In this document: in pieces, positions 34,318 to 37,962 of the stretch
How positions within the stretch are numbered: the stretch's first letter is position 1
How the letters are laid out: each line of letters begins with the position of its first letter
NCBI RefSeq assembly: GCF_014202895.1
Contig: NZ_JACHHV010000012.1
Span: 1-46,028, forward strand
From: Lactovum miscens
GTDB lineage: Bacteria; Bacillota; Bacilli; Lactobacillales; Streptococcaceae
DNA: 46,028 nt
Direction of reading: 5' to 3'
The notes under the pieces: generated by a model
Database searches by the model: none
The model's input: only the letters and a program-made list of their open reading frames with translations
Told to the model about the DNA's origin: nothing
Made by a program: the position numbers and the translations under genes

Positions 34318-36309
34318 ATGACAGAAAATAAAACTTTTTACATTACAACACCAATCTATTACCCGTCAGGTAAATTGCATCTAGGCTCTACCTATACAAC
34401 AATTGCCTGTGATGTTTTAGCACGTTACAAACGTCTTATGGGCTATGAGACTTTCTATTTAACAGGTCTAGATGAGCATGGCCAAAAGATTCAGAAGAAG
34501 GCTGAAGAAGCTGGCTTGACACCTAAGGAATATCTTGACCCGATGGCTGAAGATGTAAAAAAACTTTGGTCTTTACTTGATATTAGCTATGATAAATTTA
34601 TCCGAACAACCGATCACTATCACGAAGAAGCTGTGCAAAAGATATTTGAACAGTTGCTTGCTCAAGATGATATTTATCTTGGAAAATATGAAGGCTGGTA
34701 TTCTGTTTCAGATGAAGAATTTTTTACTGAAAGCCAACTTGCTGAAGTTTATCGTGATGCTGACGGTAAGATGATCGGCGGTATGGCACCTTCAGGCCAT
34801 GAGGTGGAAAAAGTTGAGGAAGAATCTTACTTCTTCCGTATGGGAAAATATGCTGATTGGCTTTTAGAATATTATGCGGAACACCCAGATTTCATCCAGC
34901 CTGAAATTCGTAAGAATGAAATGATTAATACCTTTATCAAACCTGGTCTTGAGGATTTGGCAGTGTCTCGTACGACATTCACTTGGGGAGTTCCAATCAA
35001 ATCAGATCCTAAACATGTGATTTATGTTTGGCTTGACGCATTGTTCAACTATATAACAGCACTTGGTTACGGGACAGAAGATGATAGTCTTTATCGAAAA
35101 TTTTGGGCTACAAAAGATGACCAACCAAATGCTGTCAATATGGTTGGAAAGGATATCTTGCGTTTTCACACCATTTATTGGCCAATTTTCTTGCATGCCC
35201 TTAATTTGCCGACACCTAAACAGGTCTTTGGTCATGGTTGGTACCAAGTAGATGGACGTAAAATGTCAAAGTCTTTTCATAATGTGATTTATGCAGAGCC
35301 ATTGGTTGAACGCTATGGTCTAGATGCCTACCGTTACTACATCCTTCGTGCAATGCCTTTTGGAAATGATGGAAACTTTACTGCTGAAAGCTATATTGAT
35401 CGTATCAATTTTGATTTAGCCAATGACCTTGGCAATTTGCTGAATCGTACTGTTGCCATGATTAACAAATATAATTCGGGAAAAATTAAAAAAGGCGAAG
35501 CAAGTGAGTTTGATGCAGCATTGAATGAGGTTGTTGACTCAAGTATTAAAAACTATCATGTAGCTATGGATAAGTTTGAGTTTTCAGTGGCCTTGTCTGA
35601 GATTTGGGTTCTGATTTCACGCAGTAATAAATACATTGATGAAACAGTACCATGGGTGTTAGCTAAATCTGAAAATGACGAGTCAAAACTTAACAATGTG
35701 CTGTATCATTTGGCGGCTAATCTTCGAATTGCTGCTGCTCTTTTACAGCCATTTATGCATGAAACCTCAGAGAAAATTTTCAGTCAGCTCGGCTTAGCGG
35801 ACAGCCAAATTTCAATTGAAAATCTTCAAGTTGAAGTTGATTTTGTTAATCCTGTTGTAAAAAAGGGTGAGCCAATTTTTCCTCGTCTTGAACGAGAAGA
35901 AGAAATTGCTGTGGTGAACGGCTTTATTGGCGGTGAAAATGAAGTAGTTAATGAACTTTCAGAGCACAAAGATATCATTCAATTTGACGATTTTGATAAG
36001 GTTGAGATTCGTATTGCAGAAGTTCTAGAAGTTGAAAAAGTTGAAGGTTCTAGTAAATTACTTAAGTTCACTTTAGATGATGGGGAACGCAAGGACCGTT
36101 GCATACTTTCAGGCATCCAGGCCTTCTATCCAAATGAGAAAGAACTTGTTGGTAAGAAACTTCAAATTGTGGCAAACTTAAAACCGCGTAAGATGATGGG
36201 AAAATATGTCTCTGAAGGGTTGATTCTTTCTGCTGAAAGCCCAGATGGTAAGGCACTCCAACTCTGTACAGTGGACGCTTCAACTCCAAATGGATCATTG
36301 ATAGGTTAA
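34318..36309 (+). CDS. metG: Methionyl-tRNA synthetase
   Basis: The 663-aa enzyme has the class I signatures KLHLG (16-20, HIGH-like) and KMSKS (near 313), [15 protein letters not shown], an anticodon-binding domain and a C-terminal EMAPII-like tRNA-binding domain (about 558-663) used for dimerisation. It lacks the four-cysteine zinc knuckle of the E. coli type. Translation initiation is odd, because no SD is adjacent to the ATG. It is followed 5 nt later by the DUF2829 gene. Confidence 0.97.
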
Positions 36310-36313
36310 TTTT

Positions 36314-36559
36314 ATGAAAGTCGAAAAAATAAATTTTGAAACAGCTCTTCCCCTTTTAAAAGCTGGGAAAAAAATTGTAAGAAGTGGTTGGGAAGGTGGT
36401 GAAGATTACATTAAACTCTTTAACCAAATTTTTGATTCCTCGGGTAATCAAATTGAGGTAACCCCTTATTTCCTAATTAAGGTAAAGGGAGAGGGATTCT
36501 CTATGTTCTCACCTACACCTTGTGATGTACTTGCTGAGGATTGGGTTTTGGTAGAATAA
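36314..36559 (+). CDS. DUF2829 (Tad2-like) small protein
   Basis: The 81-aa product shows the DUF2829 pattern: NFETALPLLKAGKKIVRSGW at residues 7-26 and PYFLIKVKGEGFSMFSPTPC followed by DVLAEDWVLVE at the end. Phage Tad2 proteins of this family bind cyclic ADP-ribose isomers and inhibit Thoeris defence; a cellular role for chromosomal copies is not known. It lies 5 nt after metG and overlaps the SDR gene by one base (TAATG), so it is operonic. Whether the ligand pocket is intact cannot be judged here. Confidence 0.75.
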   Translation: MKVEKINFETALPLLKAGKKIVRSGWEGGEDYIKLFNQIFDSSGNQIEVTPYFLIKVKGEGFSMFSPTPCDVLAEDWVLVE

Positions 36560-37269
36560 TGCGATTCTCAGGTCAAAAAGTACTTGTTACAGGTGCAGCT
36601 TCAGGAATTGGAAAGGCCCAGGCTCAAGCCTTCAGAAATGATGGTGCAGAAGTCGTAGCGGTAGATATTCATGAGGCTGATGGGATTGTTAAATGTGATG
36701 TTTCAGATCCTATTCAGGTTAAACAAATGGTAAATTTTGTCGGTGAAATCGATATTCTTTGTAATACAGCTGGAATCTTAGATGGTTATAAAACACTTGA
36801 CACAACGGATTATAGGTTATGGAAAAAAGTTTTAGAAACAAATCTCGATAGTATTTACCTAACTTGTTCAGGATTTTTACCTCAGATGAAAAAGCGAGGA
36901 TCTGGTGTTATCATTAATATGGCTTCTGTTGCGGGACTTGGTACAGGTGGAGGAGGTCTGGTTTATACAACAAGTAAGCATGCCATCGTTGGCTTTACCA
37001 AGCAACTGGCTTCGGATGAAGCGAGACATGGGATCCAAGTTCTTGCAATTGCACCCGGTGCAATTAAAACTCCAATGACCGCATCAGACTTTGATAATGA
37101 TGAAAAGGTAGCGAAAAAAGTTGCTGCGGATATTCCTTCAAAACGTTGGTCGGACCCAGAGGAAGTTGCTGAATTGACGCTTTTTCTTGCCAGCCCAGCA
37201 GCTAAATATATGTCAGGAGCGGTGATTCCAATTGACGGAGGCTGGTCACTTGGTCATATGAATTATTAA
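36559..37269 (+). CDS. Short-chain dehydrogenase/reductase
   Basis: The 236-aa classical SDR has the cofactor motif TGAASGIG (11-18), NTAG (69-72), and the catalytic S123, Y136, K140 (YTTSK). Asp36 after the second strand (VVAVDIHE) suggests NAD(H) preference. It resembles 3-oxoacyl-ACP reductases, but the substrate is unknown; fabG itself normally sits in the fab cluster. The frame opens at a TTG at 36541, but the ATG overlapping the previous stop is preferred. Confidence 0.87.
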   Translation: MRFSGQKVLVTGAASGIGKAQAQAFRNDGAEVVAVDIHEADGIVKCDVSDPIQVKQMVNFVGEIDILCNTAGILDGYKTLDTTDYRLWKKVLETNLDSIYLTCSGFLPQMKKRGSGVIINMASVAGLGTGGGGLVYTTSKHAIVGFTKQLASDEARHGIQVLAIAPGAIKTPMTASDFDNDEKVAKKVAADIPSKRWSDPEEVAELTLFLASPAAKYMSGAVIPIDGGWSLGHMNY

Positions 37270-37372
37270 AATTTAAAAAAAGAGTTCTGGTAGGTTTATC
37301 AGGCTTTTCTTTTTGATTAGATTCTGTTAAACTATACAAGTTAATGTGGGCTAAAGAAGTTCAATATTAATC

Positions 37373-37446
37373 CCTGAGACTTTTACCTTTGCTCAGGCAT
37401 ACTACACTGCGGGTAGATTTCATGTCCTACCACGCATAAAGGAGAA
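37373..37446 (+). promoter_or_regulatory. preQ1-II riboswitch
   Basis: A hairpin CCTGAG/CTCAGG (37373-37397) is followed by CATACTACACTGCGG, an inserted GGTAG/CTACC hairpin, and AAAGGAG (37438-37444) just before the queT ATG. This matches the preQ1-II class, in which ligand binding traps the SD and blocks translation. Its location ahead of a queuosine-precursor transporter agrees. Confidence 0.88.
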
Positions 37447-37449
37447 TTC

Positions 37450-37962
37450 ATGAAAAAAAATATCAAGGTCTTCGATATCGTATCAATTGCGATAGTTGCG
37501 GCACTCTACATTGTCCTCACAGTCGCACCCGGGTTCAATGCCATTAGTTATGGCCCAGTTCAATTCCGTTTTTCAGAAATGTTTAACTTTTTAGCCTTCT
37601 ATAATAAAAAGTACATTATAGCGGTAACGCTTGGATGCATGATCTCAAATTTTATGAGTTTCACGATTGTAGATGTTATTGTAGGTGGACTTTCAACTTT
37701 AATCTTTGTTTGGTTAGGTGTAATCTTATTTGATCGTTTCAAGGACCAATACTTCTTAAATGGTCAGTTAAATAAGGCTTTCGTCTTCTTCGCTATTTTC
37801 TTTGCTTTTACAATGTTTACTATTGCCATTGAACTCGTTTTTGTAGCAGGTGCTCCATTTATCTGGACATGGTTTACACTTTTCATTGGAGAATTTGCAT
37901 CCTTAATTGTGGGTGGTATCATTATTGACAAGTTAAGCAAGCGAATTGACCTGAGTAAATAA
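37450..37962 (+). CDS. queT: Queuosine precursor transporter QueT
   Basis: The 170-aa membrane protein has about five helices and the QueT-family segment YGPVQFRFSEMFNFLAFYN (37-55). It is the S component of an ECF transporter for preQ1 or a related precursor; the shared ECF module is encoded elsewhere. The riboswitch in its leader supports the substrate. SD AAAGGAG is part of the aptamer. Confidence 0.94.
   Translation: MKKNIKVFDIVSIAIVAALYIVLTVAPGFNAISYGPVQFRFSEMFNFLAFYNKKYIIAVTLGCMISNFMSFTIVDVIVGGLSTLIFVWLGVILFDRFKDQYFLNGQLNKAFVFFAIFFAFTMFTIAIELVFVAGAPFIWTWFTLFIGEFASLIVGGIIIDKLSKRIDLSK

Follow-up and report, generated by a model that had tools for sequence, protein, structure and literature searches.

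The Tad2 fold is best known from phage proteins that counter bacterial immunity (in the tRNA modification literature the name Tad2 denotes a tRNA deaminase), and the locus described here raises the question of what a protein of this fold does when it is encoded by an ordinary inherited bacterial gene. The gene lies in a 46,028 nt stretch of the Lactovum miscens genome (contig NZ_JACHHV010000012.1), referred to below as the window. A preliminary description of this DNA had reported an 81-aa DUF2829 protein in a housekeeping context, its gene overlapping by one base that of an NAD(H)-type short-chain dehydrogenase (SDR), and had offered two readings, a cellular nucleotide-binding protein or a domesticated anti-defence gene. 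A core-gene branch marked by invariant residues of its own, a fixed enzyme partner and a metabolic neighbourhood would imply a cellular function for the Tad2 fold and open the origin of the phage inhibitors to testing. The features concerned are the following.

34318..36309, + strand: metG, a lineage-specific upstream neighbour outside the conserved module (Pfam tRNA-synt_1g)
36314..36559, + strand: Tad2-like (DUF2829) gene of the cellular type (PF11195, AF2 model, Foldseek, Glu30 and Cys70)
36559..37269, + strand: NAD-type short-chain dehydrogenase, the constant downstream partner (NF005118)
37323..37452, + strand: preQ1-II riboswitch before queT (RF01054, 50.6 bits, gathering score 47)
37450..37962, + strand: queT, S component of a preQ1 ECF transporter (PF06177, 120.5 bits)

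Identity and setting of the Tad2-like protein

The open reading frame at 36314–36559 of the forward strand begins with an ATG at 36314, four bases past the metG stop codon, and encodes 81 aa; its own stop codon ends at 36559, the single base that it has in common with the ATG of the SDR gene. The product matched the Pfam family PF11195 ('Tad2-like') with 77.3 bits (cut-off 25; E 1.3e-21), and homology searching thus places it inside DUF2829, as had been proposed; NCBIfam returned no family for it. Among solved proteins the best phmmer match was 9eib_A (E 7.9e-10), and 8v3e_E (E 1e-9), SPO1 Tad2 (8sme_A, E 1.4e-5) and AcrIIA7 (8kbi_A, E 5e-4) were also matched. The Pfam assignments of the neighbours (GroEL, MetG, QueT, RNase III, SMC, two TsaD-family proteins, RNase J and Tex) and the reading-frame coordinates agree with the housekeeping context and the one-base overlap given in the preliminary description.

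The structural comparison with Tad2 that had been recommended bore out the fold. The AlphaFold (AF2) model of the protein has a mean pLDDT of 93.8, and Foldseek gave 24 PDB matches at E≤0.001, every one of them a Tad2 or an AcrIIA7 chain, with ModTad2 (9eib_B) at E 1.1e-6. VIA-align superimposed the model on ModTad2 with Z 11.4 and an rmsd of 3.3 over 76 residues, and on AcrIIA7 8kbi_A with Z 10.8. The next fold after the Tad2s in VIA-align was the virion neck protein of phage 812 (PDB 8qkh_s, Z 6.6), and Sm-like folds scored about Z 3.

Cellular and phage-type sequences

Glu30 and Cys70 are invariant in the cellular rows of our alignment (128/128) and Thr68 is present in 125 of the 128, whereas Asn27 and Lys29 each occur in a single row and Met31 in none. 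The phage-type rows (n=15) show the opposite pattern, with Asn27, Lys29 and Met31 in 14 rows each, Ser68 in all 15, Glu30 in one and Cys70 in none. From these 15 rows we defined a phage loop motif, N-G-K-x-M; where phage Tad2s have this motif the window protein reads E-G-G-E-D, and the long insertion of the phage Tad2s is missing from the cellular proteins. In a tree of 44 rows and 82 columns the cellular and phage rows were split on one branch (88/100), with the exception of the long-branched Kc263 protein; the tree is unrooted, has no outgroup, and is not one from which the direction of gene movement can be told. On alignment and tree, the cellular Tad2-like proteins are a group of their own, apart from the phage Tad2s. 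In three short DUF2829 proteins from viral contigs in IMG/VR (L110–L112) the phage-type GW..KGM loop occurs together with PTQCD, a motif of the cellular branch; these proteins are possible intermediates, and they show that Cys70 alone is no hallmark of the cellular type.

In the model, the loop joining strands 1 and 2 of the sheet consists of residues 24–29, and residues 66–68 lie just before a helix at 69–73. A review (PMC12043709) describes a gcADPR pocket of Tad2 to which one subunit contributes loop b1-b2, loop b3-b4 and strand b4, and the other subunit loop b1-b2, loop b4-a3 and helix a3, and assigns the binding of cyclic dinucleotides to an insertion. Given where the model puts residues 24–29 and 66–68, both changed stretches are predicted to lie beside the gcADPR pocket. 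With changed residues at this place and the long phage insertion absent, a change of ligand is likely, that is, the ligand of the cellular Tad2-like proteins probably differs from that of the phage Tad2s. As N-G-K-x-M has been lost and an invariant Glu and Cys gained, binding of cADPR isomers is not to be assumed.

Distribution

PF11195 was found in 305 of 335 Streptococcaceae genomes (Lactococcus- and Streptococcus-like), almost always in single copy, and in 193 of the 395 genomes of the order to which the window belongs. Within its own genus, four genomes of which were searched, the gene was present in one other genome (G002), where it is followed by sdr and queT and where metG was not found at the locus (L045). 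When a profile built from 26 cellular members (A1) was searched against 398 genomes of the class, 48 of them were positive and the scores had a two-humped distribution, 42 matches having at least 118 bits and eight at most 57 bits; nine high-scoring matches lay outside the order, and all seven of the seven loci fetched had the arrangement tad2like-sdr-queT. Genome G028 holds two DUF2829 matches of equal score (L004; G028:C1:523688 and 933041), in 113-aa frames and of the phage Tad2 type by sequence, which sit alongside further PF11195 copies.

Eleven of 20 loci from IMG/VR (L099–L109) showed 55–62% identity. The reading of these high-identity 'viral' matches as phage homologues was set aside; the SDR gene follows wherever the sequence reaches far enough (L101, L102, L103 and L107). 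A 5.9 kb entry without annotation, OR848486.1 ('Listeria phage LM 4-14-1'; L169), carries tad2like-sdr together with chromosomal-looking neighbours and is probably a mislabelled host fragment. Proteomic tables for Streptococcus suis (PMC8125046) and Enterococcus faecalis (PMC10533825), in the portions accessible, include DUF2829-family proteins with cellular and phage types not distinguished, and members of the family, of whichever type, are therefore made in the cells of these species.

Defence genes

The claim that the window contains no defence gene was upheld by PADLOC, which returned nothing for the Tad2-like/SDR pair and, for 30 further window proteins (32 scanned in all), only matches that were weak or of a generic ATPase kind, the highest-scoring of which, mad3, is the SMC ATPase. 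Nor is the gene borne by a phage or prophage, as its housekeeping region and its occurrence throughout most of the Streptococcaceae indicate. A search for thsA/thsB elsewhere in the genome had also been advised; restricted to the ThsB family, it gave no ThsB-type TIR (ThsB_TIR, PF08937; 0 matches) in the organism's own genome, which is 99% complete.

The SDR partner

The SDR scored 314.5 bits against NF005118 (cut-off 270). Asp36, Ser123, Tyr136 and Lys140 are each conserved across 97% or more of 135 rows, which provides the Ser-Tyr-Lys active site as well as the acidic residue that, when placed after SDR strand 2, signifies NAD preference. The label of NF005118, '3-oxoacyl-ACP reductase', is doubtful for this enzyme because of its constant Tad2-like partner; the nearest solved SDRs are generic.

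Among the collected loci there were 131 distinct cellular-type proteins, seven of them from IMG/VR contigs, and 125 had at least 800 bases of downstream sequence. The same NAD-type SDR gene followed, in the same orientation, in every one of these 125, and within 100 bases in 121. Since the loci had been gathered via the Tad2-like gene, pairing is more fairly judged from a panel of 80 genomes: 32 genomes had both genes, three had PF11195 only, four had the SDR only and 41 had neither (Fisher p 2.6e-14). Two of the three PF11195-only genomes (G018 and G566) have weak matches and the third (G573) has a phage-type form (L190). Beside the SDR genes of two SDR-only genomes (L079 and L080) no trace of a tad2-like gene was found; in another SDR-only genome, G012 (L081), a 30-residue tad2-like remnant directly precedes the SDR gene. 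In G489, a member of the Lactobacillaceae, queT is directly followed by the SDR gene with no Tad2-like gene (L082, 2861–4162); this genome has QueA and gave no match for QueG or QueH.

The SDR thus sometimes occurs alone, whereas no cellular Tad2-like protein was observed in its absence. Such an asymmetry points to the SDR as the enzyme and to the Tad2-like protein as its helper, and we consider it very probable that the two gene products act together.

metG, queT and preQ1 riboswitches

The gene order metG-DUF2829-SDR, the conservation of which the preliminary description had wished to see checked, holds true in the window, and its DUF2829-SDR part is fixed, but metG is not conserved, as only 11 of 129 distinct loci have it in the 400 bases upstream. 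A functional role for the metG context was accordingly rejected; in G018 (L084), moreover, metG is directly followed by queT and the pair is absent.

The neighbour common across families is instead queT, often accompanied by a preQ1 riboswitch, which had not featured in the earlier account. For 79 distinct loci the sequence extended 700 bases or more upstream and 1900 or more downstream; queT adjoins the pair in 49 of these, lying behind it in 41 and in front of it in eight (L062, L064, L065, L067, L086, L198, L199 and L201), and in 30 loci it does neither. Because queT occurs both behind and in front, its linkage to the pair appears to have survived rearrangement. In the panel, 20 of the 36 SDR-positive genomes have queT no more than 432 bases from the SDR gene; 16 have no queT within 1 kb, and these are mostly of Streptococcus-like genera.

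In the window, as in L045 and L060, a preQ1-II riboswitch sits between the SDR gene and queT, and matches below the gathering score occupy the same place in L092, L098, L150, L162 and L160. Elsewhere a single preQ1-I riboswitch heads the unit queT-tad2like-sdr (L062, L065, L067, L086, L201 and, weakly, L199; several Lactobacillaceae). Rfam searches found no preQ1 riboswitch in L198, where queT comes first, none at the gathering score in 12 Streptococcus loci or in the queT-adjacent loci L033, L038, L061 and L068, and none in the queT-adjacent loci L036, L095, L097, L158, L155, L185, L186 and L195. In the window and in other tad2like-sdr-queT loci the riboswitch lies behind the pair and hence need not control it.

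Co-occurrence with queuosine genes

QueA was present in 74, QueT in 73, QueG in 61 and QueH in 21 of the 80 panel genomes. QueA and QueT both occurred in all 36 SDR-positive genomes (p 0.03 and 0.015, respectively), and QueG showed no association with the pair in the panel (p 0.80); such p-values overstate the evidence, because related genomes are not independent. Across the order (395 genomes), PF11195 was found in 190 of 361 QueA-positive as against three of 34 QueA-negative genomes, 14 QueA-negative genomes of this count having been assigned by inference from gaps in the genome numbering; with the window's own family removed the figures are 123 of 291 and two of 33. The three exceptions among the QueA-negative genomes are G566, with its weak PF11195 match, G289, which has PF11195 without QueA, and G588, which gave no QueA match yet holds a full tad2like-sdr-queT unit (L184) in a fragmented assembly of 120 contigs. 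The association with QueA is modest in the panel and is driven by few lineages, and many of the QueA-negative genomes belong to one genus (g18). Many genomes with both QueA and QueT lack the pair, which is therefore not needed for the core queuosine pathway. QueA was found without QueG or QueH in G489, G601, G643, G622 and G594.

Discussion

The window gene is best explained as belonging to a branch of the Tad2 fold that is cellular and inherited vertically, and not as an anti-defence gene. A link of the Tad2-like/SDR pair to queuosine is probable, and to the more specific proposal, that the Tad2-like protein is the ligand-binding helper of an NAD(H)-dependent SDR redox step near queuosine-precursor salvage, we would give an even chance. 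According to this proposal, the Tad2-like protein would be a small ligand-binding protein working in physical partnership with the SDR encoded directly behind it and, by analogy with solved Tad2, might form a tetramer with pockets between subunits. QueT would import preQ1, and the pair would bind and oxidize or reduce a metabolite related to 7-deazaguanine or to a nucleoside, the Tad2-like protein holding or presenting the metabolite and the SDR carrying out the redox step. It is also conceivable, if rather unlikely, that the cellular Tad2-like proteins bind a 7-deazaguanine (preQ1, queuine or the queuosine nucleoside), that they take part in an unrecognized redox step of queuosine-precursor salvage in Bacilli, and that phages acquired their nucleotide-binding fold from a metabolic protein of this kind and reshaped its pocket loop to make sponges for immune signals.

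Several other explanations must be weighed against this proposal. Tentatively, the pair may be a real unit whose substrate is unrelated to queuosine, for example a nucleotide, an NAD-derived by-product or a sugar alcohol, with the closeness of queT reflecting old synteny or shared promoter use. The separation of the pair from queT in Streptococcus-like genera (16/36 genomes) is consistent with such a substrate, as are the breadth of SDR families, the generic character of the nearest solved enzymes and the partly phylogenetic nature of the QueA association; against it, queT lies behind the pair in most lineages but precedes it in others, and several genera have a single preQ1 riboswitch at the head of the three-gene unit. 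The same riboswitch operons could be read differently, with the Tad2-like protein acting as a buffer that binds imported preQ1 and lowers the free concentration sensed by the riboswitch, and with the SDR detoxifying or trimming related compounds. Sequestration is indeed how the fold works in phages, according to the accessible text of PMC12043709, but a buffer would leave unexplained why the SDR can occur alone when no cellular Tad2-like protein was observed to lack its SDR, and we regard this alternative as very improbable. Still less credible is the idea that the pair supplies a missing epoxyqueuosine reduction in lineages with QueA but neither QueG nor QueH. Three SDR-positive Lactobacillaceae (G489, G601 and G643) have this gene complement, but most SDR-positive genomes have QueG or QueH (QueG in 28 of 36), G489 has the SDR without a Tad2-like gene, and G622 and G594 have QueA but neither QueG nor QueH, and no SDR that passes the cut-off. 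As a general role, replacement of QueG or QueH is not supported; the pair does not track QueG.

The remaining explanation is the domesticated phage gene of the preliminary description, the product of which would still sequester cyclic ADP-ribose isomers or cyclic dinucleotides and so restrain the cell's own TIR-type immune signal. In favour of such an origin, fold and family are common to Tad2 and the window protein. The near-universal single copy in the family, the fixed SDR partner, the absence of the N27/K29/M31 loop from the cellular set, the missing long insertion and the lack of a ThsB_TIR match in the genome all weigh against it, and we have rejected it as the leading reading, its probability being very low. 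The other reading put forward there, a cellular protein, fits the single-copy occurrence in 305 of 335 genomes, the separate grouping from phage Tad2s and the SDR partner in 125 of 125 cases. Automatic labels of the type 'Thoeris anti-defence 2-like' on such genes are probably misleading. If the proposed link to queuosine holds, the pair points to a possibly missing step of queuosine salvage in streptococci, enterococci and lactobacilli. Our literature searches found no description of the Tad2-like/SDR pair, and as the main Tad2 papers and the first preQ1-III riboswitch survey lay outside them, the pair may already be in print.

Comparison with known systems

The partner enzyme passes the cut-off of the SDR family NF005118, the name of which is a broad annotation, and our literature searches gave no tested function for it. 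With salvage units consisting of QueT and a preQ1 riboswitch the window has in common both queT and a preQ1-II riboswitch; in the accessible portions of three reports on queT and preQ1 riboswitch regulons (PMC11625349, PMC11130926 and PMC12519234) neither a DUF2829 nor a dehydrogenase partner is mentioned.

Among phage families, PHROGs 1048 and 872 have the DUF2829 domain in common with the window protein (E 2.8e-14 and 2.3e-12, respectively); they are families of unknown function whose profiles, of 211 and 172 positions, include an extra N-terminal part. AcrIIA7, also a DUF2829 protein, has the same fold, but its chains are larger (104–158 aa); it comes from mobile elements and, to our knowledge, has no SDR partner. 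The closest comparison is with phage Tad2 itself (SPO1 gp34.65, ModTad2, SptTad2 and HgmTad2), with which the window protein has the PF11195 domain and the fold in common. It is 25–37% identical to the 14 phage Tad2 rows fetched, and its residues R23, W26, G28, D71, A74 and D76 are common to them. In contrast to phage Tad2, the window gene is chromosomal and paired with an SDR, and its product belongs to a set in which Glu30 and Cys70 are invariant, which is without N-G-K-x-M and which is shorter in the stretch from strand 2 to the PY motif.
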